A stretch of 64,000 nt of DNA from Aquibaculum arenosum (lineage in GTDB: Bacteria > Pseudomonadota > Alphaproteobacteria > Kiloniellales > DSM-21159): the NCBI RefSeq assembly GCF_029222965.1, contig NZ_JARHUD010000008.1:62001-126000 (forward strand). The letters run 5' to 3'. This document shows, piece by piece, positions 1 through 31,723 of the stretch; position 1 is the stretch's first letter; each line of letters opens with the position of its first letter. The notes below the pieces were generated by a model. It did no database searches. It was not told the origin of the DNA and saw only the letters and a program-made list of their open reading frames with translations. The position numbers and the translations under genes are program-made.

Positions 1-1803
1 TCCGTTGTTCACGTAGGGAAAGCCCCGCTTCACGAAGAGATCCAGGTCCGGCAAATGCCCCAGTCGGGCATAGCCGGGGAATGTCAGCTCCGTGTCGGGA
101 TGCAAGACGAAGCGCGGCGGTTGGTCGATGTTGATGGTGCCGGGCGGACAGAAGCCCTGATTGTCGGCATTGAGAGCCGGAAGGCTCACCTCGAACTCAA
201 TCTCGTTCACACCCGGCTTGAAGTTGCGCAGCGGCAAGCTGATGAGCCTGTCGTTCATCACCTCGCCCTGGGGGTCGTTCAAGCCGAGCAGGGCCGAACC
301 GGTGCCGTTGACGAAGATGTTCAGCGCGCTGTTCCGGTCCAGCCCAGGCGCATAGGAGGCGTTGAGTTTCAAGGTGACGGCATCATCGTTGGCCGCGAAG
401 AAGTCATCCGGAAGCAGAAGTTCCGTTTTGATCGAGCGGCGCAGTCCGCCCACTTCGGTTTCCGGGGTCCCGAGCTGGGCCAGAGTGACACTCTCGCCAC
501 CTTGGATGGGCTTGCGCGGCGGCCGGGGGCGTTGCAGAGCCGGTGAGAGATCAGAGATCACGGCGTTGGAGCGGGCCGGCATCTCGAGCTCCTGCGAGGC
601 CCAGGCGGCAATCGCATCACTCACCTCTTCCCGGTTCTGTCCGGAAAAGATGAGCACCGCGCTGCCGTCGCCACGTCCCAGATTATGTACGCCCACGTAC
701 GGACCCGAGACGAAGCTCATGATCTCACGCGGGACCATTCCGCTCAATTCGTTGGCGGTGCCGAAAAGCGCCAGCATGCCGCCGGGTAAGGCATCGCGAT
801 CAAAGACCGGCAGCGCCGTTGCAGGGCGGCCAGCGCGCTCCAGACTCTCAAGCGACACAAGTTGAAAGTCCGGCAGGTCTCCTGGTGCGCGCCGGGCTGC
901 GCCCTGGACCAGCTCAAGAGCGTCGGCAACCCAGTCTTCAGCCGGGCTGTTGGAGGGCGCCAGCAGAGTAAGCCGCCGCGGCCCGTTTATGCCCGAGGCC
1001 AGGGCATAGTCAAAGCTCGCCAGGGAGGGGGGAGCCAGAGGCTGGGCCAGGCGCACCTCGATCCCGCTGGCCAGAGCGTCCACCGCGCTCCAGAGTTCGT
1101 AGATGCCATTGATCGAACAGAGAACGCGGTGGTTCTGTCGCGCGCGAACCACAACCTCGTTGGGCCCTGGCCGGAGCAGCCCCTCGGGCAGATCTGCCCG
1201 TATGTCCTGCGCTCCGGAAACGGCACGCGGCGCGAAGCTGGCAACCAAGCGACCGTTGACGGCGACGTCAAGACGAGAGGCGGCGGGCAGAACCTCGACC
1301 GAGTTCAGATAGCGAATGAAAATGCGGGAGTCGGCGACCACTGATTCCGCCGGCAGGGTGACCGTAAAGCGGCGCTCGGCCTCCTGCTGCTCCAGGAGAA
1401 CTTCTCGATTGTCGTCCGGCAGATTCCCTTCGAGCGGCAGAAAGCGCCAAGCTGCGCCGCGCTGCGCCTCCATACGAGGATCGCTTTGCAGGACATAGGG
1501 ATCGCGCACGCTCGGTGCTTCACGCTCCACGTTTGTCTGCACCTGCGATTCCTGGCCGGAACCTCCCTGCCGCTGCTGTTGCGGCAGAACGCGAAGGTCC
1601 GCATCAGGATCGCCGAGCGCCCCAGTAGCGCCAGATTGCCCATTTTCCATCTCGTTCGCATCGAGTGGTGGCAAGGGAATCAGGGTCTGCGCTTGCGCGT
1701 TTGCGCTGCCAAGAGCAAACGCGATGCCACAAAGGGCTGTCAGTGCAACACCCAGAAACGCCGAACGCAGCCGGGTCATGTGCCATCCCCCAAATCCGGT
1801 CAT
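1..1803 (-). CDS. bcsB: Cellulose synthase periplasmic subunit BcsB (3' end beyond window)
   Basis: The minus frame is open from an ATG at 1803 to the window edge, about 601 residues with no stop, so the gene is cut by the boundary. BcsB is the periplasmic partner that caps the BcsA channel and guides the nascent glucan. The ATG at 1803 overlaps the bcsA stop as ATGA and has GGAGG 7 nt upstream. A second in-frame ATG at 1779 would start the signal peptide directly (hydrophobic core FLGVALTALCGIAFALG, then an ANAQA-like cleavage site). BcsB-type stretches include NHRVLCSINGIYELW and GPYVGVHNLGRGDGSAVL. The C-terminal membrane anchor is not visible. Identity follows from these stretches and from translational coupling to bcsA. 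Confidence 0.88.
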   Translation of the reverse strand, partial: MTGFGGWHMTRLRSAFLGVALTALCGIAFALGSANAQAQTLIPLPPLDANEMENGQSGATGALGDPDADLRVLPQQQRQGGSGQESQVQTNVEREAPSVRDPYVLQSDPRMEAQRGAAWRFLPLEGNLPDDNREVLLEQQEAERRFTVTLPAESVVADSRIFIRYLNSVEVLPAASRLDVAVNGRLVASFAPRAVSGAQDIRADLPEGLLRPGPNEVVVRARQNHRVLCSINGIYELWSAVDALASGIEVRLAQPLAPPSLASFDYALASGINGPRRLTLLAPSNSPAEDWVADALELVQGAARRAPGDLPDFQLVSLESLERAGRPATALPVFDRDALPGGMLALFGTANELSGMVPREIMSFVSGPYVGVHNLGRGDGSAVLIFSGQNREEVSDAIAAWASQELEMPARSNAVISDLSPALQRPRPPRKPIQGGESVTLAQLGTPETEVGGLRRSIKTELLLPDDFFAANDDAVTLKLNASYAPGLDRNSALNIFVNGTGSALLGLNDPQGEVMNDRLISLPLRNFKPGVNEIEFEVSLPALNADNQGFCPPGTINIDQPPRFVLHPDTELTFPGYARLGHLPDLDLFVKRGFPYVNNG

Positions 1804-4067
1804 CCCGCAGCCTCCATTGGATGGTGGGAGAAGCGGCTGTGACCGACATCCTTTTTGCTGACCTCGAGCACCGGATCGAAACCGCGCGGAGAAGGCGCGT
1901 CCTGTAGCTTTAGGAGGAAGCGAGCGACGTAGTAGATCGAGAGCGCAGATCCCAGAAGGAAGCGCAGTACACCCATAACAACACCCGGCGATCGGGCTCT
2001 CCGCCCCTCCAGGAAGGCAACCCACCGGTTACTGCTGATGAAGATCAGCTCGGCGATCATCCCGAATTCCGCACCGGTGGGCTCGACGAACTCGGCCCCG
2101 ATGGCGATACCTTCTTCTTCCACCCGAACGTTTCGCAGTTGAATGCGCAGGCGTCCCGACGCCTCCTCACCCGGTTTGACGAAGGACACCGCCAGCGGAT
2201 ACGATTCCAGTTCCTCCTGGGACGCCGCTCCGCGTGGTAGCAGCACCTTCACGCCCATGATGGACGCGTCGACGATATAGGCCGGGAGGCGCCGTTCTTC
2301 ACCGATCATCAGCGCGACCGGCTCCTCGATCTGGACCCGCGGCGCCCGCCTGACCTGCTTGCGCTCGCAGACGACGCGCAAGCCCTGGACGGCCAACAGG
2401 AAGCCGAAGAGATTCCAGCCGCCGACCACCAGCACGATGTCTTGCGTGTCGGGATAAGCAAAGTAGCGCCAGACCGTCGCAATCAGGCCAAGCGTGAGGA
2501 AGCCCGTGATGATGAAGAGCGGCCTGGCCTGCTGCGACAGCTTGTTCTTGTCGACGGTCTCACCCTTCGCCGTGACGTTGAAGGAGGGCGCGGTCGGCTT
2601 GAGCATCACTGAGATCAGCGCCCGGGCCATGAAGGTTGCCTGAATGAACTCGTAAAGCTCTGACAGAAGCGGCCAGCGCGTTCGGCCGAAGAGGTAGCTC
2701 GATGTCAGGAGCGTCACGCCGATGTAGAAGGTGGTGTAGGCTAGGAACTCCGCCGCGGTGGCACTGTAAACCGCCAGGCCGAAGAAGAGATAGAACAGCG
2801 GCATCAGGAAGAAAGTCAGCCGCGCGAAGCCGAAGAACCAGAAGAGGTTGCTGGAGAGGTAGCCCAGACGCTGCCCAAGATCGAGGCCGCGCCGAAACAG
2901 CGGATTTTTGAGCAGGAAGATCTGCACCATCCCCTGACCCCAGCGAATGCGCTGGCTCATGAAGGAGCTGAAGGTCTCCGGCTGCAGCCCCGCGATCATG
3001 GGCTTGTCGATGTATAACGATTCCCAGCCCAGTGCGTGCAAATCCACAGACGTCTCGCAGTCCTCCACGATGGTGCGACCGGAGAAGCCTCCCACCTGCT
3101 CCAGAGCCTGGCGCCGCAACACGGCCGCCGAACCGCAGAAGAAGCTCGCGCCCCAGCGATCGAGACCACGCTGAATCACGCCGTAGAACATCTCGTTCTC
3201 ACCCGGCATGTAATCGAAGGTGTTGAGGTTGCGCTCCAGCGGGTCCGGGTTGATGAAGAAGTGAGGGGTCTGGACCAAGAACAACTTAGGCTTGTCAGCA
3301 AAGTGCCCGACCGTGTTTTCCAGGAAGTCTTCCGTCGGTGCGTGGTCGGCATCGAGCACCGCGATCAACTCGCCGCGGGTCTTGGGCAAGGCTGCGTTGA
3401 GATTTCCGGCCTTGGCATGCTCGTTGCGCTCGCGCGTCAGATAAACGACGCCCAGTTCCCGGCACATCTCCTCGAGCAGCTTCCCGCGCTTGACCGCATC
3501 TGCCGAGGCGCGGCGTTTTTGATCGGTACCGCCGTCATCCAGCAAATAAACCGTCATTCGGCCCTGGGGATAGCGCATCCGTGACGCGGCCGAGAGCGTT
3601 GCGGCAAGAATGTGAGGGTCTTCATCGTAGGTGGGGACGAAGACATCGACACTGGGCGCCTTCGAGGGGTCATCGTCGAGCTTGGCCACCGGCCGGCGCA
3701 TTGGGTCGATGACGATGAACAGGCTGATGAAGAACATCAGCATCGCGTAGACCTCCGCCCCATAAAGCACCACGCCGGGCACGAAGGCATAGATATCCTC
3801 CACAGGAGGAATGGTGTTCTGAGTGCGCCAGATTAGGTAGCGCAGCACCATGAAGCTGGCGACGCCGCAAAACAGCACGCGGAAGAAGCTGGTGCGCGGA
3901 AGGCGGCCAATCACGATCAGGGCGACGAACAACGTCATGCTGAGCGCGATCTGGGCATCGGCGCTCAAGGGCTGGCCGGCAAGGACCAGATGTATGAGGA
4001 GGATCAAGACCCAAAGGGCCAACATGACGAGCATCATTTCGGCTACTGAAGCTGCCCCACTGTTCAC
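1800..4067 (-). CDS. bcsA: Cellulose synthase catalytic subunit BcsA with PilZ domain
   Basis: Inner-membrane processive GT2 glycosyltransferase that polymerises UDP-glucose into cellulose and extrudes it. It has 755 residues: N-terminal membrane helices (about 12-125), then the GT core with DDG 177-179, DAD 239-241, FFCGS 309-313, VED 334-336 and QRIRW 372-376, more helices (about 410-560), then a PilZ domain. The PilZ signature is present as an RxxxR-type cluster (569-577) and DASIMG (600-605), so c-di-GMP activation is expected. The frame begins with GTG at 4067; an ATG at 4037 is an alternative and neither has a strong ribosome site. It is first in the operon with bcsB and divergent from a c-di-GMP synthase gene. 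Confidence 0.95.
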   Translation of the reverse strand: MNSGAASVAEMMLVMLALWVLILLIHLVLAGQPLSADAQIALSMTLFVALIVIGRLPRTSFFRVLFCGVASFMVLRYLIWRTQNTIPPVEDIYAFVPGVVLYGAEVYAMLMFFISLFIVIDPMRRPVAKLDDDPSKAPSVDVFVPTYDEDPHILAATLSAASRMRYPQGRMTVYLLDDGGTDQKRRASADAVKRGKLLEEMCRELGVVYLTRERNEHAKAGNLNAALPKTRGELIAVLDADHAPTEDFLENTVGHFADKPKLFLVQTPHFFINPDPLERNLNTFDYMPGENEMFYGVIQRGLDRWGASFFCGSAAVLRRQALEQVGGFSGRTIVEDCETSVDLHALGWESLYIDKPMIAGLQPETFSSFMSQRIRWGQGMVQIFLLKNPLFRRGLDLGQRLGYLSSNLFWFFGFARLTFFLMPLFYLFFGLAVYSATAAEFLAYTTFYIGVTLLTSSYLFGRTRWPLLSELYEFIQATFMARALISVMLKPTAPSFNVTAKGETVDKNKLSQQARPLFIITGFLTLGLIATVWRYFAYPDTQDIVLVVGGWNLFGFLLAVQGLRVVCERKQVRRAPRVQIEEPVALMIGEERRLPAYIVDASIMGVKVLLPRGAASQEELESYPLAVSFVKPGEEASGRLRIQLRNVRVEEEGIAIGAEFVEPTGAEFGMIAELIFISSNRWVAFLEGRRARSPGVVMGVLRFLLGSALSIYYVARFLLKLQDAPSPRGFDPVLEVSKKDVGHSRFSHHPMEAAG

Positions 4068-4503
4068 ATCCGCAGAGAGCGAATCTCCCTTGCCAAACCA
4101 TAAGGCAATGCGGTGACAAAAATAAAGATAAAATTGTACCTATATATCGTCCAAACACTTATCCCTTCCAGCGCCTACTGAGACGGCTTTCCGACCAGCG
4201 CTCTCAGACCGGCTCACAGTGACCAATGCTCAGAGTTAACCATCAGCCAGCTTATAAAATTTATGAGAGATTTACCCGCACCCTGACATATCTTAAAACA
4301 ATTTGCGTTACAGTGAGTAGCTGGGGAAAGGGCGCGTCGCCCCTTTCTAGGCGCCTCCAATGAAATTCGACTAAAAGCTGTGGCGTCTCGCTCTACAATG
4401 ACTAACATATCCAGTAGCGAGATAGCTGATTTTGGGAATCCTGTTTTTGTGCCATCCAGGCTGGCGGAGCGGCCGGCCGGAACATTGACACAAGGAACAT
4501 TCA
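4068..4503. promoter_or_regulatory. Divergent intergenic region between bcsA and the phytochrome gene
   Basis: This 436-bp gap has no convincing gene and must hold the promoters of both divergent units. It is AT-richer than its surroundings, notably at 4110-4160. On the minus strand a weak promoter-like pair, TTGGAC (4154-4149) and TTATCT (4131-4126) with a 17-bp spacer, lies about 60 bp upstream of the bcsA start. On the plus side the 8-bp sequence GGAACATT occurs twice (4479-4486 and 4494-4501), the second copy overlapping the AAGGAAC ribosome site of the phytochrome gene. These sites are read by eye only. Confidence 0.5.
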
Positions 4504-6600
4504 ATGGCTGAGCTTTTAGATGGGGTCGAAGAAGCCTGTGCGCGAGAGCTGATGCTTCGCCCCAGCGCAATACAGCCATACGGTTTACTAACGGTGGTCG
4601 ATCGGGAAAGTGATCAGATCACGATGGCCGCAGGGGATTTCGGCGGATTTCTCGGCAAAGAAATTGCCGCCAAAGGGGGCGCTCTGGCCGACCTTGCCGG
4701 TGATTCTCTGGAAAGCCTGATCGCACGCAGCGGCGAACCCCTCTCCCACATACCTATTTACCTGACCACCCTGAATGGCTCTCCTCGTGGCCCGCTGGTT
4801 CTGCTTGCGCACATCCTCAACAGTGACGGCCCCGTGGTGGTCGAGTTCATTCCCGCCAAGGACCCGGAGGCGTTTCCAGCAGATTACCAAAACAGCACCC
4901 CCCGACTGCTGTCCCGTCTGCGCGGGACCATCGAGCGCATCTCCTCCGCCGAGAGCCTCGATGACGCCTTCAATAGGACGACCCGGGCGATCAGTCAGAT
5001 CACCGGCTATGACCGCGTTTTGCTCTATCGCTTCCTCGAGGATGGCACGGGAACGGTGGTGGCCGAATCCAAGACAGCCGAGCTGAGCAGCTATCTGGAC
5101 CATCGCTTCCCAGCCTCGGACCTGCCCACACAGGCACGCGAACTTTACAGAACCAGCAGGTTCCGCCTCATTCCCGACGTCAATTACAAGCCTGCGCCGC
5201 TGCGCGCCCTGAATGGGAGTGACGAGCCGTCGCTCGACATGAGCCATTCCCTGCTGCGCAGCGTTGCGCCGGTGCATCTGCAGTATCTGCGCAACCTGGG
5301 CGTCAGCGGATATATGTCGCTGTCGCTCTTGGTGGAAGGCGAACTCTGGGGCTTGATCGCCTGCCACAACAGCACGTCGCGGGTCATCCCCTACGAGACA
5401 CAGGAGGAGTGCTGCCACATCGCGGAACTGCTTAGCCGGCAGATCGAGTCTCGGCAACGCGAAGCGGCATTTTCTAAGAAGGCGCAGATGGATGCCGCCA
5501 GCACCGCTCTGCTGCGCAGCATCGTTGCCATGGACCAAGACGAGTACGCACTGTTGGGTCGCGGCTCCGAACTGCTGGACGTCGTCCCCGCCCACGGCGT
5601 GGCGGTGACCTACCAGGACAAGGTTGCGGCCTACGGAACGAATCCAGGTGATGCCGCCATCCTGCATCTGCGCGACGCCCTGGCCGCCAAAATGGGAGAA
5701 GAGGGCTTCTACGCCACCCACTGCCTGGCACGGGATGTACCTGCGGCACGCGCCTTTACGCCCCGGGCTGGCGGCGTGCTGGCCATTCGCCTCTCCGTCA
5801 ATACCCGAGCCCTGGTTCTCTGGTTTCTGGCGGAGCAGATCGAGGAAATCAAATGGGTCGGCAATCCCCACGAGTCGACATTCCTGGACGAGGAGACAGG
5901 CAAGCTGAACCCGCGCGCTTCATCCGCCGTTTGGCGGGAAACGGTGCGCGGACGTTCCCGCCCATGGCTGGCCGCGGAACTCGCCGCCGCCCGCTTCTTT
6001 CAGGAGCGCGCGGCCTTCGTTTTCCAGTCACGCTACGTTGCCGACCTGAACGAATCCCTGCGCCTGGCCAACCAGGAGCTTGCCAACTTGGCCTCGACGG
6101 ACGGCCTCACCGGCCTCGCGAACCGGCGAATCTTTCAGGAGCGCTTGCGTTCGGAGTGGGCACGGGCCCTGCGGGAGGAAGCGCCGCTCTCCCTGGTCAT
6201 GCTCGATATCGACTACTTCAAGCGCTACAACGATCACTATGGCCACCCAGCCGGCGACCAGTGCCTGGCGGCCGTGGCCAAGGCGATCGATGGCATCGCC
6301 AAGCGACCGGGGGACCTCGCTGCGCGCACCGGCGGCGAGGAGTTTGCAGTGCTTCTGCCCGCCACTGACCTCCAGGGGGCCGAAGCAATGGCAGAGCAAT
6401 TGCGCCAGCGGATCACTGGCCTGCAACTGCCCCACAGCCTGAACCCGGAAGGCATCGTAACCGTCAGCTTGGGAGTTGCCGCGACGCGGCCGCACCGCAG
6501 CGATGCAGAAACCCGGCATCGCCTGGTGCTGGCAGCGGACGTCGCGCTTTATGACGCAAAGAACTCCGGCCGCAACCGCGTTTGCGTCAGCGAAATTTAG
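4504..6600 (+). CDS. Bacteriophytochrome with GGDEF output (photosensory diguanylate cyclase)
   Basis: 698 residues in the order PAS-GAF-PHY-GGDEF. Cys12 in an EEACARE context, before SAIQPYG, matches the biliverdin-binding cysteine of bacterial phytochromes. The GAF domain keeps PASDLPTQARELY (203-215), DMSHSLLRS (245-253) and LWGLIACHN (281-289). The PHY tongue has WVGNPH (451-456) and PRASSAVW (470-477), close to the usual PRxSF. A helical linker (about 495-530) leads to a complete GGDEF domain: GGEEF at 610-614 and an RxxD inhibitory site at 601-604 exactly five residues before it. It should therefore make c-di-GMP under red/far-red control with product inhibition. No heme oxygenase gene is adjacent, so biliverdin must come from elsewhere. 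AAGGAAC lies a few bases before the ATG. Confidence 0.93.
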   Translation: MAELLDGVEEACARELMLRPSAIQPYGLLTVVDRESDQITMAAGDFGGFLGKEIAAKGGALADLAGDSLESLIARSGEPLSHIPIYLTTLNGSPRGPLVLLAHILNSDGPVVVEFIPAKDPEAFPADYQNSTPRLLSRLRGTIERISSAESLDDAFNRTTRAISQITGYDRVLLYRFLEDGTGTVVAESKTAELSSYLDHRFPASDLPTQARELYRTSRFRLIPDVNYKPAPLRALNGSDEPSLDMSHSLLRSVAPVHLQYLRNLGVSGYMSLSLLVEGELWGLIACHNSTSRVIPYETQEECCHIAELLSRQIESRQREAAFSKKAQMDAASTALLRSIVAMDQDEYALLGRGSELLDVVPAHGVAVTYQDKVAAYGTNPGDAAILHLRDALAAKMGEEGFYATHCLARDVPAARAFTPRAGGVLAIRLSVNTRALVLWFLAEQIEEIKWVGNPHESTFLDEETGKLNPRASSAVWRETVRGRSRPWLAAELAAARFFQERAAFVFQSRYVADLNESLRLANQELANLASTDGLTGLANRRIFQERLRSEWARALREEAPLSLVMLDIDYFKRYNDHYGHPAGDQCLAAVAKAIDGIAKRPGDLAARTGGEEFAVLLPATDLQGAEAMAEQLRQRITGLQLPHSLNPEGIVTVSLGVAATRPHRSDAETRHRLVLAADVALYDAKNSGRNRVCVSEI

Positions 6601-10057: not shown

Positions 10058-10471
10058 TTGGCCTGGCTCAAGGGCTTGCACATGGTCACGCTGTTGGTTT
10101 GGTGTGCCGGGCTGTTCTACCTGCCCGCGCTCTTTGCCGCCCATGCCGACACGGCGGGTGGACAGTCCTTTCGCCGCCTGAGGGTCATGACCCGCGTTAC
10201 CTTCGTCGCCGTGACCTCGCCGGCTGCGGTGCTGGCCATCCTGTCCGGCAGTGCACTGGTCTATGCGACGGGGGTTTCGGGTGCCTGGATGGCCCTGAAG
10301 CTGGTTGCGGTCAGCCTGATGGTGCTCTTTCACCTCTACTGCGGCCGGGTCTTGGCGGTGCTGGGCGACACGCCCGGCCTGCGCTCCAGCGCGGCGCATT
10401 TTTCGCTGCTGCTGGCGCCGACACTGTTGATCCCGACGGTGCTCTGGCTGGTTCTGGGCAAGCCGCTGTGA
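10058..10471 (+). CDS. HemJ/CopD-like four-helix membrane protein
   Basis: 137 residues with four predicted helices. The N-terminus WLKGLHMVTLLVWCAGLFYL, with an early His in helix 1, resembles the HemJ (UPF0093) and CopD-like families. HemJ oxidises protoporphyrinogen IX in heme synthesis and CopD proteins act in copper handling; either would suit a gene next to a heme-copper oxidase. Translation probably starts at the TTG at 10058 with GGGGAG seven bases before it, since the nearby ATG at 10044 is in another frame. Sequence alone does not decide between the two roles. Confidence 0.7.
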   Translation: MAWLKGLHMVTLLVWCAGLFYLPALFAAHADTAGGQSFRRLRVMTRVTFVAVTSPAAVLAILSGSALVYATGVSGAWMALKLVAVSLMVLFHLYCGRVLAVLGDTPGLRSSAAHFSLLLAPTLLIPTVLWLVLGKPL

Positions 10472-10485
10472 TGCGCGCCGAACCG

Positions 10486-11001
10486 CTAATCCCCCTCCTC
10501 GTCGATAACGCCTACCTGGTGTTCGAAGACCAATTTGCCGCCCAGCCAGCCGGCGATGGAAACCAGCAACGCGCCCAGCGCCGACAGCCCGATACCCAAG
10601 GGCAGCACGGCGGCGGCCGGATCCTCGATGCGCCAGACCCAGTTGGTGAAGCCGACCGACAGCAGCATTACGGCAGCAACGAAGTGATTCCAGCCCGCCG
10701 CGCGGCGCCGGATACCGGACACGGCCAGCAGTTCCACCGTGCCGCTGAGCCCGGCCAGCGCCCCCATGCCGGTGCCGACGCCCAGCAGCCAGATCGACAT
10801 GCGTGCCCAGAAATCATCATCCGTCCACCAGAAGGCCAGGTCGCTGCCCAAGGCCGAGAGCAGCAGCGCGATGGGAAAGGTGATCAGCATGGGATGCAGC
10901 GGGTGGCCGGCCACCGCCACCATCGTGCCGGTTCCCTCCTCCGGCGGCGGTGTGGCCACCCGCTCCAGCCCATGCTCGGACGTCTCGCGCCTTTCCGCCA
11001 T
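10486..11001 (-). CDS. DUF2231 membrane protein
   Basis: 171 residues with four predicted helices. GHPLHPMLITFPIAL near residues 32-46 is the hallmark of the DUF2231 family, whose biochemical role is unknown; a heme-binding role has been guessed from the conserved histidines. The ATG at 11001 has GGGAG at suitable spacing. It is convergent with the HemJ/CopD-like gene, and its start codon lies inside the first codons of the opposing coxB gene. The end spells EEGD before TAG. Confidence 0.8.
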   Translation of the reverse strand: MAERRETSEHGLERVATPPPEEGTGTMVAVAGHPLHPMLITFPIALLLSALGSDLAFWWTDDDFWARMSIWLLGVGTGMGALAGLSGTVELLAVSGIRRRAAGWNHFVAAVMLLSVGFTNWVWRIEDPAAAVLPLGIGLSALGALLVSIAGWLGGKLVFEHQVGVIDEEGD

Positions 11002-11961
11002 GTCGTTGCACTCCCATTCGTGCTTACCAGCTGCACCGACGGACCGATGTCGGCCCTCGATCCCGCCGGGCCTGCAGCCGACGCCCTCGCCGGGGTCTGG
11101 TGGGTAATGCTGGGCGGCAGCTTTTTGATCCTCGGCGCGGTGGTCGCGCTCGCACTCTACGCCATCTATGGCCGCGGCGCGCGGCGCAGCGGGATCACCC
11201 CGCGACTGCTGATCGTCGGCGGCGGCCTGGTCTTCACCCCTGCGGTGCTCGCCGCACTGCTCATCTGGGGCATCGGTGCCGGTCACGCCCTCCTGCCCCT
11301 GCCGGGCGAGCGCGAGGTTTATCGCATCGAGGTGCGCGCACACCAGTGGTGGTGGGAGGTGACCTATCCCGACGCCGAGGACGGACCGCTGCACGCCGCT
11401 AATGAGATCCACATCCCTGCCGGCCGGCCGGTGGACATCACCGTTAGAGCTGAGGACGTGATCCACAGCTTCTGGGTACCGCGGCTCGGCGGTAAGATCG
11501 ACGCTTTGCCCGGCCACACCAACGTGATCCGCCTCGAGGCGCCGGCAGCCGGCGTCTATAGGGGACAGTGCGCAGAGTTCTGCGGCGCCCAGCACAGCCG
11601 CATGGCGCTGCTGATCGAGGCACACGAGACAGAGGCCCTGGAGGAGCGGTTAGCGTTACTGTCCCCAACCCGAGAGTCGGACAGCGCCGAAGCGCCAGGG
11701 GCTGCCGCCTTCCAGGAGCACTGCGCGGTCTGCCACAGCCTCGACCCACGCACGCGCGGGGCAACGCCGGCACCCAATCTGGCCGACCTTCCGCACAGAG
11801 CCACGCTCGGCGCCGGCACCCTGCCCAATGCGGAGGGGGCGCTGCTGCGCTGGCTCCGTGATCATCAAGACCTGAAGCCGGGCAATCGTATGCCGCGCCA
11901 CGACCACCTGGACCCGGAGACGCTCGAAGCCATTGCTAACCACTTGGAGGGGCCAAGGTGA
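10972..11961 (+). CDS. coxB: Cytochrome c oxidase subunit II, caa3-type lipoprotein with cytochrome c domain
   Basis: 329 residues. A short N-terminal hydrophobic stretch ends in a lipobox, LTSC, with Cys21 as the probable lipidated residue, followed by SALDPAGPAAD as in other caa3 subunits II. Two transmembrane helices (about 43-65 and 78-104) precede the CuA cupredoxin domain with ligands His165, Cys200, Glu202, Cys204, His208 and Met211. A C-terminal cytochrome c domain has CAVCH at 251-255 and a likely Met307 ligand in NRMPRH. The ATG at 10972 is chosen because it gives the lipobox; an ATG at 11047 would lose it. No good ribosome site is visible for 10972. The end overlaps the next gene as GTGA. 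Confidence 0.9.
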   Translation: MLGRLAPFRHVVALPFVLTSCTDGPMSALDPAGPAADALAGVWWVMLGGSFLILGAVVALALYAIYGRGARRSGITPRLLIVGGGLVFTPAVLAALLIWGIGAGHALLPLPGEREVYRIEVRAHQWWWEVTYPDAEDGPLHAANEIHIPAGRPVDITVRAEDVIHSFWVPRLGGKIDALPGHTNVIRLEAPAAGVYRGQCAEFCGAQHSRMALLIEAHETEALEERLALLSPTRESDSAEAPGAAAFQEHCAVCHSLDPRTRGATPAPNLADLPHRATLGAGTLPNAEGALLRWLRDHQDLKPGNRMPRHDHLDPETLEAIANHLEGPR

Positions 11962-14465
11962 GCAGGTCGCACATCAGCCCCATCGAGCGCCACCGGCGGC
12001 TTGACGTCGATTTCCGCACGCCAGGCGGGTTTGGTCGCCTGACCTCGGTGAACCATTCGATCGTTGGCCTGCGCTTCATCTACACCGGCCTCTTTTTCTT
12101 CCTGGTGGGCGGCCTGCTGGCGATGCTGATTCGTGCCCAGCTGGCCACCGCCGAAAGCGCCTTCCTGGGACACGCGGCCTATAACCAGATCTTCACCATG
12201 CACGGCACGGTGATGATGTTCCTCTTCGCCATCCCCGTGCTGGAGGGCCTTGCCCTCTATCTCCTCCCCAAGATGCTGGGCGGGCGCGACCTCGCCTTCC
12301 CGGCGCTGAGCGCATTTGGCTATTGGTGCTATTTTTTCGGCGGCATGATCTTGCTGGCAGCACTGCTCCTGGGCCTGGCGCCGGACAGCGGCTGGTTCAT
12401 GTACACGCCGCTGTCCGGCAGCACCTACACGCCCGGCATCAATTCGGACGTCTGGCTGATCGGCGTCACCTTCGTCGAGGTCTCTGCGCTCGCTGCCGGG
12501 GTCGAAATCACCGTGACGGTGCTGCGCATCCGCACCGCCGGCATGAGCCTGGACCGCATGCCGCTGTTTGCCTGGTATATTCTGGTAACGGCAATGATGA
12601 TCGTCGTTGGCTTTCCGCCACTGATCCTGGGCAGCATCCTGCTGGAACTGGAGCGGGCCTTCGATTGGCCCTTCTTCGAGGTGGCGCGCGGCGGTGACTC
12701 GCTGCTGTGGCAGCACCTCTTCTGGCTCTTCGGCCATCCCGAGGTCTACATCATCTTCCTGCCAGCCGCCGGCATCGTCTCGACGCTTATTCCGGTCTTC
12801 GCCCGCCATCCCATGATCGGCTATGGCTGGATTGTCGCCAGCATCGTCGCCACCGGCTTCATCAGCTTCGGGCTCTGGGTGCACCACATGTTCACGGTCG
12901 GCATCCCGCACCTGGCGCTCGTCTTCTTCTCCGCCGCCTCCATGCTGGTTGCGATCCCCACCGGCATCCAGTTCTTCGCCTGGATCGCCACGCTGATGGC
13001 GGGAAGACCCTATGTGCGCTTGCCGATGCTTTACCTCTTCGGCTTCCTGGTGGTTTTCGTCATGGGAGGGCTGACAGGCGTTATGCTGGCGCTGGTGCCC
13101 TTCAACTGGCAGGTCCACGACACCCATTTTGTCGTCGCCCACATGCACTACGTGCTGGTCGGCGGCATGGTTTTCCCGCTGCTCGCCGGGCTCACCTACT
13201 GGCTGCCAGTGGCCTCGGGACGCATGCCCTCCGAGCGCCTGGGGGTGGTGGCCTTCTGGCTGATATTCATCGGCTTCAACCTGACCTTCTTCATGATGCA
13301 CCTGACCGGGCTCAAAGGCATGCCGCGGCGGGTCTACACCTATGACAGCGGGCTGGGCTGGGAGACGCTCAACCTGCTGTCGTCGGTGGGCGGGTTCATC
13401 ATGTCGATCGGCGTGGCACTGGTCCTGCTGGACCTCTTCCTGCACTTTCGCATCGGCCAGCGCGCGCCGCGCAATCCGTGGGGCGCCGGCACGCTTGAGT
13501 GGACACTGCCCAAGCCGCCGCCCAGCTACAACTTCGGCTCTCTGCCTCGGGTCGAGAGCCGGGAGCCCCTGCACGACACTCCGGACCTGCCGCGGGCGCT
13601 GGCCGCCGGAGAAGGCCTGCTCGCCATACCGCGGCCGGACGGGCGCGAAACCCTGGCCGTCGAGGTGGTCAGCGGCCGCCCGGCGCACATCGTCAAACTG
13701 CCGGCCCCCAACTGGATGCCCTTCCTCGGCGCGGTCTTCACTGGGGTCTTCTTTCTCTCCTTTCTGCTCAAGCTCTACCCGCTGGCGGCGGTCGGCGCGC
13801 TGCTCGCGCTGGGCGTCTTCCTGCGCTGGGCCTGGTCGCACGGGCGGCGGCAGGACCCGGAGCCGCTGCGAGCCGGCGAAGGCATAAAGCTGCTGCCACA
13901 GGCCGCGGTGCCCGCAGCGCCCGGCTGGTGGGGCCTGCTCTTCACCCTGGTGGCCGACGGCACCGTCCTGGCCGCGTTGCTGTTCGGCTACCTCTTCCTC
14001 TGGACAGTGGCGCCGAACTGGCCGCCGCCGGCCTTTATCGAACTGCAGCCGCTGATCCCGCTGCTCGGCGCGCTTGCCCTGCTGGTTGGGCTCCTCGCCG
14101 CACGGGGCGCCTTGGCCGCGAACAGACGGGCAGCAGCGGGAATGCGCGGCATCTGGTTGCTGGTGCTCCTGCTGGCTGGCCTGCTGGCCGCGGGCGCCCT
14201 GCTGGCGATCCCGCTGGGCGCACCACCGCCGCAGACCCACGCCTACTTCGCCGTGACCGCGGTGCTGGCCGGCTATGGCGCCTTCCACTGCCTGCTGGGT
14301 GTGGTGATGGCAGGCTTCGTGCTGCTGCGCTGCCGCGCCGGCTTCGTCTCCGCTTTGCGCCAGCTCGATCTGCGCGTGCTGCAGCTCTGGTGGGACTACA
14401 CGAGCGGGGCGGGCCTACTGATCCTCGCGGCGATCATGCTGCTGCCCTGGGTCCTGGCGCCATGA
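11958..14465 (+). CDS. Fused cytochrome c oxidase subunits I and III
   Basis: 835 residues. The first ~540 are subunit I with twelve helices: the heme a ligand in FTMHGTVMM (His82), the CuB/tyrosine motif GHPEVY (about 257-262), WVHHMFTVG (about 306-314) and the heme a3/CuB region DTHFVVAHMHY (about 387-397). After a loop rich in Pro and Arg, residues about 575-835 hold some seven more helices resembling subunit III (GWWGLLFTLVADGTVLAALL and later). I+III fusions are known in caa3 oxidases. The GTG start at 11958 overlaps the coxB stop by 4 nt. This is the O2-reducing, proton-pumping core of the enzyme. Confidence 0.9.
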   Translation: MSRSHISPIERHRRLDVDFRTPGGFGRLTSVNHSIVGLRFIYTGLFFFLVGGLLAMLIRAQLATAESAFLGHAAYNQIFTMHGTVMMFLFAIPVLEGLALYLLPKMLGGRDLAFPALSAFGYWCYFFGGMILLAALLLGLAPDSGWFMYTPLSGSTYTPGINSDVWLIGVTFVEVSALAAGVEITVTVLRIRTAGMSLDRMPLFAWYILVTAMMIVVGFPPLILGSILLELERAFDWPFFEVARGGDSLLWQHLFWLFGHPEVYIIFLPAAGIVSTLIPVFARHPMIGYGWIVASIVATGFISFGLWVHHMFTVGIPHLALVFFSAASMLVAIPTGIQFFAWIATLMAGRPYVRLPMLYLFGFLVVFVMGGLTGVMLALVPFNWQVHDTHFVVAHMHYVLVGGMVFPLLAGLTYWLPVASGRMPSERLGVVAFWLIFIGFNLTFFMMHLTGLKGMPRRVYTYDSGLGWETLNLLSSVGGFIMSIGVALVLLDLFLHFRIGQRAPRNPWGAGTLEWTLPKPPPSYNFGSLPRVESREPLHDTPDLPRALAAGEGLLAIPRPDGRETLAVEVVSGRPAHIVKLPAPNWMPFLGAVFTGVFFLSFLLKLYPLAAVGALLALGVFLRWAWSHGRRQDPEPLRAGEGIKLLPQAAVPAAPGWWGLLFTLVADGTVLAALLFGYLFLWTVAPNWPPPAFIELQPLIPLLGALALLVGLLAARGALAANRRAAAGMRGIWLLVLLLAGLLAAGALLAIPLGAPPPQTHAYFAVTAVLAGYGAFHCLLGVVMAGFVLLRCRAGFVSALRQLDLRVLQLWWDYTSGAGLLILAAIMLLPWVLAP

Positions 14466-25662: not shown

Positions 25663-26823
25663 TCAAGGCGCGTTGCGCAGGCCGCGGCGGGGAATGTGGT
25701 AGTCGCGGTGGATGCGCACGTTCAGAATCAGGCCCAGGCTGAGCATGGTGGTGAGGATCACCGTGCCACCATAGGAGACCAGGGGCAGCGGCACGCCCAC
25801 CACCGGCAACAGGCCCATGACCATCGCCATATTGATGAAGACGTAAAAGAACAGGTTGGCGGTGAGCCCCATGGCCAGCAGGCGGCCGAACTGACTGCCG
25901 GCCGACAGCGCGATGGCGACGCCGTAGATGAAGACCAGCAGATAGAGCCCGAGCAGCACCAGGGCACCCACGAGACCGAATTCCTCGGCCAGCATGGTGA
26001 AGATGAAATCGGTTTGGCGCTCCGGCAGGAAGTTGAGGTGGCCCTGCGTGCCCTCGAGGAAGCCCTTGCCGAAGAGCCCGCCAGAGCCCAGCGCGATTTT
26101 CGACTGGGTGATGTGGTAGCCGGCGCCAAGCGGATCGGTGGAGGGGTCGAGGAAAACCAGCACCCGCCGCTTCTGGTAGTCGTGCAAGAAGCTCCAGGCG
26201 ATGGGCACCAGGGCGCCGATGCCCGCCGCCACCAGCGCGAACTTCCACAGCCGGACGCCGGCCAGGAAGAAAAGCGTGCCCGCGCCCATCAGCAGCATGG
26301 CGGCGGTACCGAGATCCGGCTGGCGCAGCACCAGCGCCGCCGGCGTGAGCGCCAGGGCCAGAGGCACCAGCAAGTAGAGCGGATGACGCAGGTCCCGATG
26401 TGCAATGCCATGGAAGTAGCGCGCCAAAGCCAACAGAAGCGCCACCTTCATCAACTCCGATGGCTGCAACTGCATGAAGCCGAGGTTGATCCAGCGCTGC
26501 GCCCCCATACCCACCATACCCTTCACTTCGACGATGATGAGCAACAGCAGGCACAGTGCGTAGAAGGGGTAGGCGGCGCGGAACCAGAGGCGGATGTCGG
26601 TCAGAGCCACGGCCAGCAGCAGCAGCAAACCGCCGGCCACGCGCGCCATGTGTGCCCAGGCCCAGGGCTCGAAGCTTCCGTTGGCGGCGGAATAGAGCAT
26701 CGCCGTGCCCACGGCGGCCAGCGCCAGGACCAACAGAACCAGCCCCCAGTTCAGATAGAGCAGCTTGCGGGCCAGCGGGGTTTCCGGGTTGCGCCGCAGG
26801 CGCATGTCGTCGAGAGCTGACAC
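25663..26823 (-). CDS. rodA: Rod-shape SEDS glycosyltransferase RodA
   Basis: 386 residues with about ten helices. SEDS-family blocks are visible: GAQRWINLGFMQLQPSELMK, LRQPDLGTAAMLL and the C-terminal VGVPLPLVSYGGT. RodA polymerises lipid II into glycan strands with PBP2 during elongation. The GTG at 26823 is preceded by TAGGAGG. It follows mrdA by 12 bp and is the last protein gene of the mre cluster. Confidence 0.95.
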   Translation of the reverse strand: MSALDDMRLRRNPETPLARKLLYLNWGLVLLVLALAAVGTAMLYSAANGSFEPWAWAHMARVAGGLLLLLAVALTDIRLWFRAAYPFYALCLLLLIIVEVKGMVGMGAQRWINLGFMQLQPSELMKVALLLALARYFHGIAHRDLRHPLYLLVPLALALTPAALVLRQPDLGTAAMLLMGAGTLFFLAGVRLWKFALVAAGIGALVPIAWSFLHDYQKRRVLVFLDPSTDPLGAGYHITQSKIALGSGGLFGKGFLEGTQGHLNFLPERQTDFIFTMLAEEFGLVGALVLLGLYLLVFIYGVAIALSAGSQFGRLLAMGLTANLFFYVFINMAMVMGLLPVVGVPLPLVSYGGTVILTTMLSLGLILNVRIHRDYHIPRRGLRNAP

Positions 26824-26835
26824 CGAGGCGGCCTC

Positions 26836-28731
26836 CTACCCCTGACCGCCGAGCGCCGCGATCGGGCCGGAGGGGCCCTCACGGCTCGCCGGATCTCGGC
26901 GCTGGGTCTCGATCAGCAGATCACGGGCAATAGGCGCGGCCACCGCCGAGCCGCCGCCGCCGTGCGCCACCACCACGGCACAGGCGTAGCGCGGCCGGCC
27001 GACCGGCGCGAAGCCGACGAAAAGCGCATGATCGCGGCGGTGCCAGGGCAGATCCTCGTTGCGGAACACACCGGCGGCCCGCTCGGCGGCACTGATGCGT
27101 CGCACCTGGCTGGTGCCGGTCTTGCCCCCCATCTCCAGCCCCGGCAGGTCGATGCGCGCGCCGCGGGCCGTGCCGCGTCGGCCCAGCACCACCTCCTCCA
27201 TGGCTTCGACCACGATGTCGAGATGACGCTCGGGTATGCCCAGGCTCGGCGGCGGCGCCTTGACTGTGGGCTCGATGCCGCCCGGACGATGAATGGCCCG
27301 GGTGACATGGGGCACCACGGCCCTGCCGCCATTGACCAGGCGTGCCGTCATCACCGCCAGCTGCAAGGGCGTCGACAGCATGAAACCCTGGCCGATGGCG
27401 GAGATGAGTGTCTCGCCGCCCTGCCAGCGCTCACCGATGGTCGCCAGCTTCCAGTCTTCGGTGGGCACCAGCCCCTCGCGCTCGCCTGGGAGATCGATGC
27501 CGACCGGCACCCCCATCCCCAAGCGGCGCGCCATAGCGGCGATTCTTTCGATCCCAAGACGCCGGGCAACGTCATAGTAGTAGACGTCGCAGGACTGGAT
27601 CAGAGAATCCTGCAGGTTCATGTGGCCGTGTCCGCCGCGGCTCCAGCAGTGGAAGCGGTGGTTGCCCAGTTCGTAGTAGCCGGGACAGAAAACGCGTTCC
27701 CCGGGATCGATACCCTGTTCCATGGCCGCCAGCGCCACCACCATCTTGAAGGTGGAGCCGGGCGCATAGGCCCCTGCGATGCACTTGTTGCTGAGCGGAT
27801 TGAGCGGGTCCTCAGTCAAGGCGCGCCACTGGGCCGCGGTGAGGCCGCGCCCGAAGGGTTCCGGATCGTAGCTCGGCACCGAGGCCATGGCCAAGACGTC
27901 GCCATTGGTGACGTCCAGCACCACGGCCGAGGCGCTGCGCTCGCCCATCAGGCGCTGTTGGGCGTAGTTCTGCAGCATGGTGTCGACGGTGAGTTCCACC
28001 ATGTGCCCCGGCTGGCCCTCCTCGCGCGTCAGTTCCTGCATCACCCGGCCAACGGCATTGACTTCGACCTGGCTGGTGCCGGCCGCGCCGCGCAGAGTCT
28101 CGTCGTGGGTGCGCTCGATCCCGCTCTTCCCGATGCGCAGGCCAGGGAGTTGCAGCAGGGGATCATTCTGCTCGATTAGGTCGCGCTCGGAGACCGCTGC
28201 CACATACCCCAGGATGTGGGAGAGCACGGCGCCGAAGGGATAATGGCGGGTTTCACCCACCTCGATACTGATACCCGGCAGCTCCGGGGCATTCACCGCG
28301 ATGCGACTGACCTGGTCCCAGCTGAGATTGTCGCGTACGCGTACGGGCACGAAGGAGCGCACGCGACTGACATCACGGTCGATGCGCTCGCGATCGGCTT
28401 CGGTGATCTCGACAATGCCGCCCAGCCGGTCCAGCACCTGTCGATAGTTGCGCGCCTGCTCGGCCACCAGCAGGACCTGATAGTTCTGCCGGTTGATGGC
28501 GACGGGAATGCCCTGACGATCGATGATCTCGCCGCGCGGCGGCGCCAGCAGCCGCATCGAAATGCGGTTGTTCTCGGCCAGCAGACGATAGCGCTCGGCT
28601 TCGACAACCTGGAGCTGATACAAGCGGCCCACCAGCGTGCCCAGACCCAACAGCATGCCACCGCCCAGCAGCAAACTGCGGCGGCTGAAACTGCTGTAGC
28701 GGGTCTGTTCCTCGTTTCGGGACCTCTCCAC
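26836..28731 (-). CDS. mrdA: Penicillin-binding protein 2 (elongation transpeptidase)
   Basis: 631 residues: cytoplasmic tail, one anchor helix (about 19-38), PBP dimerisation domain with PPRGEIIDRQG, and transpeptidase domain. Active-site motifs are SxxK as Ser326-Thr-Phe-Lys329, SCD in IQSCDVYYYDVARRLG, and KTG in GGKTGTSQV. It cross-links peptidoglycan in the elongasome with RodA and MreBCD. The start is GTG with AGGAGG upstream. Confidence 0.95.
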   Translation of the reverse strand: MERSRNEEQTRYSSFSRRSLLLGGGMLLGLGTLVGRLYQLQVVEAERYRLLAENNRISMRLLAPPRGEIIDRQGIPVAINRQNYQVLLVAEQARNYRQVLDRLGGIVEITEADRERIDRDVSRVRSFVPVRVRDNLSWDQVSRIAVNAPELPGISIEVGETRHYPFGAVLSHILGYVAAVSERDLIEQNDPLLQLPGLRIGKSGIERTHDETLRGAAGTSQVEVNAVGRVMQELTREEGQPGHMVELTVDTMLQNYAQQRLMGERSASAVVLDVTNGDVLAMASVPSYDPEPFGRGLTAAQWRALTEDPLNPLSNKCIAGAYAPGSTFKMVVALAAMEQGIDPGERVFCPGYYELGNHRFHCWSRGGHGHMNLQDSLIQSCDVYYYDVARRLGIERIAAMARRLGMGVPVGIDLPGEREGLVPTEDWKLATIGERWQGGETLISAIGQGFMLSTPLQLAVMTARLVNGGRAVVPHVTRAIHRPGGIEPTVKAPPPSLGIPERHLDIVVEAMEEVVLGRRGTARGARIDLPGLEMGGKTGTSQVRRISAAERAAGVFRNEDLPWHRRDHALFVGFAPVGRPRYACAVVVAHGGGGSAVAAPIARDLLIETQRRDPASREGPSGPIAALGGQG

Positions 28732-28802
28732 GGCCGCTTGGTCCTCCTATGCCTGGTCTGACGCTATGGGTTCACGCGACTGATCGATCACGCCGGGAGC
28801 GC

Positions 28803-29321
28803 TCACAGCAGCAGCTGCTGCGTTCTGCCGAACAGCCATGCCAGACAGGGGTAGACACCCACGGTCAAGGCATACTGCAGCAACAGCAAGCGCGCATCCC
28901 CCCAACTTCCCACGAGCAGCGATCCGGCCAGCCAAGCCAAGGTAAGCGCCAGGGCTGCAAAGAGCGCGAAAACAACCCAGAGCAGCAGGAAGCTGGCATT
29001 GACGAAGATCCGCCGCTGGCTGGCCACCAGAAAATAGATCGCCACCAGGGCCAGCAAGCCCGTTCCGAGCGGGGCGGCCGTCAGCAGGTCCTGGAACAGG
29101 CCGAGCAAAAAGATCAGCCAAGCCGGCATCAGATCAGGCCGGAAGACGGACCAGTAATAAACCGCGACCACGCCCAGCGCCGGCACCAGCGGCGCCACCT
29201 CCGGCGCACGCAGCGGCACCACCACAAAGACCACCAGAAAGGCGGTCAGCAGCGCCGGAATCAGCGCCTTGGCCAGAGTGTTGAGCCGCTGCACCAAGTC
29301 TGGTGCCATGGCAGTGTCCAC
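28803..29321 (-). CDS. mreD: Rod-shape determining membrane protein MreD
   Basis: 172 residues, almost all hydrophobic, with about five helices; FLLGLFQDLLTAAPLGTGLL is the typical MreD core. It bridges MreC to the elongasome. GTG at 29321 begins one base after the mreC stop; an ATG at 29309 is a possible alternative start. The position between mreC and mrdA supports the call. Confidence 0.9.
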   Translation of the reverse strand: MDTAMAPDLVQRLNTLAKALIPALLTAFLVVFVVVPLRAPEVAPLVPALGVVAVYYWSVFRPDLMPAWLIFLLGLFQDLLTAAPLGTGLLALVAIYFLVASQRRIFVNASFLLLWVVFALFAALALTLAWLAGSLLVGSWGDARLLLLQYALTVGVYPCLAWLFGRTQQLLL

Positions 29322-29322
29322 C

Positions 29323-30225
29323 CTACTCGTCTGCTGCCGCCTGACCGTCGGTCAAGGGAGCGATCAGGCCCGGCAGGTCGTAGTCCACCAGTCGCAGGTA
29401 ATCCAGGCGCGTCCAGTCCACATAGGGACGCAGCCGGACAGATTGCTCACTCACCGCCGCAACCACGCCCACGGGTATGTCCGGTGGGAAGACCCCGCCA
29501 TGGCCCGAGGTCACCACCCGGTCGCCTGGAGCGACCTGATGCCCCGGCGGCAGGTAGAGCACTCGCGGCTGGGCGCTGTTGTCTCCGGCCATGACCGCCC
29601 GCTCGCCGGTCAGCCCGACACTGACGGGAATGCGGCTGCTGATGTCGGTGATCAACATCACCCGCGCGGCCCGCTCGCCAGCCTCGACCACACGCCCGGC
29701 CAGTCCCTCGCCGGAGAGCGCCACGTGCCCCTCCGCCGTGCCATCCTCGGTGCCCGCCGCCACCAGGACCGAGCGGGCAAACGCGCCGCTGTTGTCGCCG
29801 ATCACGCGGGCGGAAACATAGCGCGCACCGGGGTCCGGCGGCAGGTTGAGCAGCTGGCGTAACCGCGTATTCTCCGCTTCGAGCTGTCGGGCCTTGTGGT
29901 GCCAAGCCATGAGGCGCTCGTTCTCGGCGCGCAGGCTTTCGTTGATCTGTCGCACTTCGGCCAGTTCACGCAGTCCGGTCATGGCCTGCTCGACCCCTTG
30001 CACCGGCTCGGAAAGCAGCGCCACCACCGGCGCCATGCTGTCCACCACCATGATGCGAGCGCGTTCGACAAGCAGCGTGTCAGCCTTGCCCAAGGCCAGG
30101 GTGGCGATGGTGGCGGCGATCAAGAGCAGAAACCCGAAGCGCTGGACCAGAGCCCTAACGGGCGAGGTCAGGCGTGCTACGGTGCCACTGCGCTTGGGCA
30201 AAACGTCCTCCGGAAACTGGATCAT
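29323..30225 (-). CDS. mreC: Rod-shape determining protein MreC
   Basis: 300 residues: short cytoplasmic tail, one helix (about 29-48), a coiled coil (about 85-120, rich in Glu, Leu and Arg) and the periplasmic beta domain with ARVIGDNSGAFARSVLVAAG and DISSRIPV. MreC positions PBP2 and activates it. It is separated from mreB by 144 bp that contain no gene. Confidence 0.95.
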   Translation of the reverse strand: MIQFPEDVLPKRSGTVARLTSPVRALVQRFGFLLLIAATIATLALGKADTLLVERARIMVVDSMAPVVALLSEPVQGVEQAMTGLRELAEVRQINESLRAENERLMAWHHKARQLEAENTRLRQLLNLPPDPGARYVSARVIGDNSGAFARSVLVAAGTEDGTAEGHVALSGEGLAGRVVEAGERAARVMLITDISSRIPVSVGLTGERAVMAGDNSAQPRVLYLPPGHQVAPGDRVVTSGHGGVFPPDIPVGVVAAVSEQSVRLRPYVDWTRLDYLRLVDYDLPGLIAPLTDGQAAADE

Positions 30226-30369
30226 CCGATCAAGGCGGTTGAGGACCCGAATCGGTGTAGAAGGCTAAGCAATCACTGCGCCGAGGGGAAGCCCCTGGCC
30301 TGTTCGTTTTTGACGAAGCGTCACCGCGCCGGCGCGATTCTGGCGGCGCGCCGTCCAGTAGACGATCGG

Positions 30370-31723
<1,354 letters not shown>

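Follow-up and report, generated by a model that had tools for sequence, protein, structure and literature searches.

In Aquibaculum arenosum, the gene for a phytochrome-linked diguanylate cyclase stands divergently beside bcsA, which encodes a cellulose synthase with an intact PilZ motif. We consider it probable, from the sequence comparisons below, that this diguanylate cyclase, a phytochrome by ancestry, is dedicated to the neighbouring Type III-like bcs operon, with light an ancestral and dispensable input. In the proposed mechanism, the cyclase would make c-di-GMP beside, and for, the PilZ domain of the adjacent BcsA, and its input module would be a phytochrome, here with a near-complete biliverdin pocket and a coiled-coil linker of IsPadC length (+7). 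Provided biliverdin is obtained, the cyclase here would most likely become more active in red light, and evolution would have retained the pairing of cyclase and synthase while treating the light input as expendable. The locus is real and coherent; we keep the light claim as a hypothesis, and only for this species.

Organization of the locus

The window, the whole 64,000-nucleotide stretch analysed here, covers positions 62001-126000 of its contig in a 3.49-Mb genome of 29 contigs (completeness score 100%), whose nearest named relatives by BcsA are Alphaproteobacteria. The sequence-only reading had placed a phytochrome-diguanylate cyclase gene divergent from bcsA within 1800-6600. Matches to Pfam, TIGR03030 and PDB entries bear this out, with bcsA at 1800-4067 (minus strand) and an intact cyclase gene at 4504-6600 (plus strand). 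The two genes are divergent, with 436 bp between them if bcsA starts at the GTG at 4067; the BcsA start of the sister species described below is level with residue 12 of BcsA here, and a start at that residue would give a gap of 469 bp. The features of the locus, in window coordinates, are as follows.

Beyond the left window edge: bcsZ, the TPR/BcsK-like gene and bcsN, the rest of the bcs operon
1..1803, minus strand: 5' part of bcsB (PF03170 on L037:13071-15803, where L037:14001 is window position 1; start codon not fixed)
1800..4067, minus strand: bcsA, cellulose synthase catalytic subunit (start GTG 4067, or ATG 4037/4034; TIGR03030, 4hg6, motifs)
2040..2357, minus strand: PilZ domain of BcsA (aa 571-676) with the c-di-GMP-binding motifs RRAPR and DASIMG (PF07238 above cut-off; motif columns)
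4068..4503, no strand: intergenic region of the divergent pair, with an AAGGA ribosome-binding-like site ahead of the plus-strand gene
4504..6600, plus strand: phytochrome-GGDEF diguanylate cyclase, 698 aa, PAS-GAF-PHY-linker-GGDEF (Pfam; IsPadC 5llw)
4537..4539, plus strand: Cys12, the expected biliverdin-binding cysteine (C in all 59 phytochromes that have a residue at this site of the alignment; the sister has A)
5110..5127, plus strand: PASDLP motif of GAF (aa 203-208), with I of DIP replaced by L (alignment)
5275..5277, plus strand: His258, the pocket histidine (SPxH; H in 61/62 phytochromes, C in the sister)
5911..5925, plus strand: tongue motif (aa 470-474), PRASS instead of PRxSF (alignment)
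6304..6315, plus strand: RPGD (RxxD), cyclase inhibitory-site motif (aa 601-604; also in the sister)
6331..6345, plus strand: GGEEF active-site motif (aa 610-614; PF00990, 166 bits; also in the sister)

Elsewhere in the window lie cytochrome c oxidase genes (10099-14465), the first for a COX2-cytochrome c fusion and the next for a COX1 protein of 835 aa with no Pfam match over its last ~350 residues, and a rodA-pbp2-mreD-mreC-mreB cell-shape cluster (25663-31410), recognised by eye from the translations.

The cellulose synthase and its operon

BcsA scores 826.8 bits against TIGR03030, the CelA equivalog model (cut-off 699.1), and the crystallised BcsA of R. sphaeroides (4hg6) matches it over most of its length (E 2e-190). 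The PilZ motif of the bcsA product had been read as intact, as indeed it is: the PF07238 domain spans aa 571-676 and holds both RRAPR (RxxxR) and DASIMG (DxSxxG). DDG, DxD, ED, QxxRW and the FxVTxK gating loop are intact as well. In BcsA, c-di-GMP bound at the PilZ domain opens the gate of the enzyme. At the TED motif (residues 334-336, window 3060-3068) both species have VED, against T in 80/80 relatives; the change is specific to the genus and lies next to the catalytic Asp. Given V for T at this site, synthase activity of BcsA is assumed.

The operon, bcsA first, runs bcsA-bcsB-bcsZ (GH8)-TPR protein (672-aa)-bcsN, and no BcsD, BcsE or BcsG was found among the proteins scanned at the bcs cluster. 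The label BcsK for the 672-aa protein reflects TPR content, length and position, with no family model behind it. Type III bcs clusters are without BcsD, BcsE or BcsG and often have BcsK instead of BcsC (PMC11470070), and by its gene content the operon appears to be a Type III-like set (PMC9012009; PMC11470070). It shares BcsA-BcsB-BcsZ, a TPR protein and BcsN with the Type III clusters of Rhizobiales (bcsN, bcsA, bcsB, bcsK; PMC9012009), but differs from them in gene order and in the cyclase gene divergent from bcsA.

The photosensory module

Pfam divides the 698-aa protein into PAS_2, GAF, PHY and GGDEF domains, and its nearest solved relative is IsPadC (PDB 5llw, E 1.5e-91). Pocket residues were scored against an alignment of 62 phytochromes collected in this analysis, in which DrBphP numbers served as labels. 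Canonical residues are found at Cys12, Y175, D206, P208, R212, Y215, R221, R252, H258, Y261, S272, S274, H288, W451, P470, R471 and S473. The non-canonical ones are the Leu in DIP, Leu 265, Val 452 (WVG where W(A/G/S)G is usual) and the Ser for Phe of PRxSF. The Phe of PRxSF is present in 61/61 aligned phytochromes with a residue at that site and the Ile of DIP in 60/62, the latter change being conservative; PRASS and DLP appear almost unique among the 62 sequences. An Asn where ACHH has its second His was considered as a sign of damage and dropped, Asn standing there in 10/62 phytochromes. Every feature of an active sensor had been claimed for this protein, a description that holds for Cys12, PASD, GGEEF and RxxD (RPGD) and fails at PRASS, DLP and WVG, which depart from the consensus.

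PadCs are defined by a cysteine in the N-terminal segment, DIP, PRxSF, GGDEF/GGEEF and a red-light regulated cyclase (PMC9587094). The protein has two of the four motifs, Cys12 in its N-terminal segment and GGEEF (aa 610-614, PF00990), and departs to the letter from the other two through the local changes DLP and PRASS, for which reason we file it, by sequence, as PadC-like and not as a strict PadC. It resembles IsPadC (5llw, +7, red-activated) in PAS-GAF-PHY-GGDEF order, N-terminal-segment cysteine, GGEEF and linker length, its PHY-GGDEF linker aligning gap-free to that of IsPadC and so falling in the +7 length class. From PadCs it differs in PRASS for PRxSF, DLP for DIP and a genome in which no heme oxygenase was detected. 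Like the BphG-type PadC-EAL proteins of Cereibacter/Rhodobacter sphaeroides, it has a phytochrome module placed to drive GGDEF; theirs have an added EAL domain, whereas the protein here stops after GGDEF. In the tree made here, whose PadCs are two in number and not the alphaproteobacterial ones named in PMC9587094, the photosensory module falls among HisKA_2 phytochromes of Alphaproteobacteria and away from those two, so that the fusion of sensor to GGDEF may be independent.

These features bear on whether cellulose export is under a functioning red/far-red switch, in which biliverdin would be bound, red light would activate GGDEF and c-di-GMP would open the gate of BcsA. Such a switch is the dedicated-cyclase explanation in its light-on form, for this species only, and we rate it a serious candidate, a little short of evenly balanced. 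Nearly all pocket residues are canonical and the linker is of the +7 class, both in its favour; the near-uniqueness of PRASS and DLP among the 62 phytochromes counts against it.

Pigment supply

A heme oxygenase gene in the genome is the test for a bacteriophytochrome's own pigment supply, and none was detected here or in the sister by PF01126 at the Pfam cut-off, nor in either genome by profile A3, made from alphaproteobacterial BphO proteins, with every candidate scored. That a gene was overlooked through a weak model was ruled out, A3 recovering the held-out gene of G011, near its phytochrome, at E 2.3e-10. Across the class sample, profile A4 found heme oxygenase in 25/29 other phytochrome genomes, counting only phytochrome matches that cover the photosensory part, versus 7/~355 genomes without such a match. 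Absence of the enzyme from a phytochrome genome is thus unusual, not unique: A4 came back empty, at this sensitivity, for the phytochrome genomes G096, G137, G310 and G386, which possibly hold further phytochromes without a pigment enzyme of their own. Biliverdin may also come from an outside source or an unrelated enzyme.

The absence by two profiles of an enzyme that 25 of the 29 other phytochrome genomes possess weighs against a red/far-red switch. It speaks for a protein already independent of light here, which without biliverdin would work as an apo-phytochrome, either with constitutive cyclase activity held back by RxxD or with another ligand or a redox state as input. The unusual residues at DIP, 265, 452 and PRxSF point the same way, as does the precedent of HmPadC(+14), a PadC homologue with none of the essential motifs (PMC9587094). 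Against light independence, a pocket without pigment would be expected to decay, as in the sister, and here Cys, Asp, His, Tyr and Arg are all kept; on balance we find light independence plausible and somewhat doubtful.

The sister species

The sister, genome G001, is the only other genome of the genus compared, and its phytochrome-GGDEF protein lies at L038:13495-15558. Gene order is the same in both: the bcs operon, the divergent phytochrome-GGDEF gene, then cation efflux and ABC transporter genes. Identity between the two species is 65% for BcsA, 51% for BcsB, 59% for linker plus GGDEF and 32% for the photosensory module. Apart from the V of VED, catalytic and PilZ motifs are intact in both genus members, and the sister protein keeps GGEEF and RxxD. 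Its sensor no longer has the bilin Cys, the Asp and Pro of GAF, the His of the pocket, the Tyr or Arg residues at 175, 215 and 252, or the Arg, Ser and Trp of the tongue; by Pfam its PAS domain is undetectable and its PHY domain partial. Light cannot enter such a protein, as its sequence reads, at least via the known covalent route. With the pocket lost and the cyclase-synthase locus kept in the sister, what has been conserved is the cyclase together with the synthase, and light is an optional input.

The tree covers 64 photosensory modules, and in it the protein here pairs with that of the sister (support 100/98). The branch here measures 0.82 and that of the sister 2.74, the longest of all, a branch of a length whose placing is in general uncertain; synteny supports the orthology of the two proteins independently of the tree. 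In the sister the constraint on the sensor has gone; here it appears to persist. The ordinary branch of the sensor here thus favours a red/far-red switch, against which stands the abandonment of the pocket by the sister; the blindness of the sister adds to the case for light independence. For the genus as a whole, we tentatively suggest, on the doubtful side of even, a cellulose-tied phytochrome cyclase that is turning non-photosensory after the loss of biliverdin synthesis, a process that would be complete in the sister and, here, either at an early stage or held by outside biliverdin.

Distribution of the gene pair and the intergenic region

A survey of the gene pair in relatives, proposed by the sequence-only reading as a check, found the cyclase-synthase linkage kept in both genomes of the genus examined. 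Of the family members searched, no others have bcsA. The best 80 BcsA loci from named genomes are 45-52% identical and come mostly from Rhizobiales; within flanks of up to 10 kb, 0/80 have a phytochrome and 5/80 a GGDEF gene. A phylum sample of 399 genomes contains 16 others with both a phytochrome match and BcsA, and in none are the two within 90 kb on one contig. For these samples (80 BcsA loci, 399-genome phylum sample, family), the pair as a widespread arrangement is ruled out. Phytochrome cyclases on plasmids were also considered; the records covering at least 80% of the query are mostly annotated as EAL-domain proteins.

A single 436-bp control region shared by the two genes had been proposed. 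The length stands, given the GTG start at 4067; shared control finds less in its favour, the gap being unlike that of the sister. No similarity was detectable between the gaps of the two species, and no common motif above chance 8-10-mers. The gap here gave no match to a sigma-70-like promoter or terminator and none in an Rfam search, and its repeats are weak only.

That the two genes are neighbours by accident, the cyclase serving other targets and its position beside bcsA being meaningless, would fit a pair unseen outside the genus in the samples searched and a gap that is not conserved. We consider it improbable: adjacency has outlasted the divergence of BcsA and BcsB, decay of the sensor half has spared the cyclase half, and one partner makes the ligand bound by the other.

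A probable dedicated cyclase for cellulose synthesis

The genome encodes five GGDEF proteins and three EAL proteins, and the sister has two GGDEF matches. With its gene beside the synthase and few cyclases in the genome, the cyclase is most simply the supplier of BcsA. Several observations count for this dedicated-cyclase explanation: the pair and its flanks are kept despite the divergence of BcsA and BcsB, the catalytic and PilZ motifs are intact in both species apart from VED, linker plus GGDEF is better conserved than the photosensory module, the sensor of the sister has the longest branch of the tree, the linker aligns gap-free to IsPadC, heme oxygenase was detected in neither genome, and the GGDEF set is small in both species. 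Against it, conservation of the pair rests on one comparison of two genomes only, four other GGDEF proteins here could feed BcsA, the intergenic region is not conserved with the sister, and both BcsA proteins carry VED for TED. The parts of the locus, their order and conservation in two species, the intact motifs, the loss of the sister's pocket and the lack of a detectable heme oxygenase are read off the genomes directly; from them we infer that the enzyme would be active, that this cyclase and not another would feed BcsA, and that it would photoconvert and respond to light with the sign given above.

Light-controlled cellulose export, as originally proposed for this locus, thus fares unevenly. 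The linkage of cyclase to synthase is upheld in both genomes, and the light step is the weaker part, given the lost pocket of the sister and the undetected heme oxygenase; the evidence for a link to cellulose is stronger than that for a link to light. Light control in this species is possible, to judge from a pocket that is unusual only at DIP, PRxSF and two further residues, and the cyclase, blind in the sister, is possibly still light-gated here if biliverdin is obtained.

A path from light through c-di-GMP to a PilZ cellulose synthase is known from SesA/Tll0007 of Thermosynechococcus (reviewed in PMC5812497), and phytochrome cyclases are well studied (PMC9587094). SesA (cyanobacteriochrome-GGDEF)/Tll0007 and the locus here are alike in joining a light-regulated cyclase, c-di-GMP and a PilZ cellulose synthase; theirs uses a blue-light cyanobacteriochrome GAF in a phototroph, whereas here the module is a biliverdin-type phytochrome whose gene adjoins the bcs operon. 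In the open-access literature we found no description of a bacteriophytochrome cyclase paired with bcsA, nor of such sensor decay in a sister species.

A standing question in c-di-GMP biology is which cyclase supplies a given effector, and the network here is small, with one of its cyclase genes adjoining an effector operon. Together the two species, one with the pocket intact and the other with it destroyed, form a natural experiment on whether the light input, or only the supply of cyclase, is under selection.
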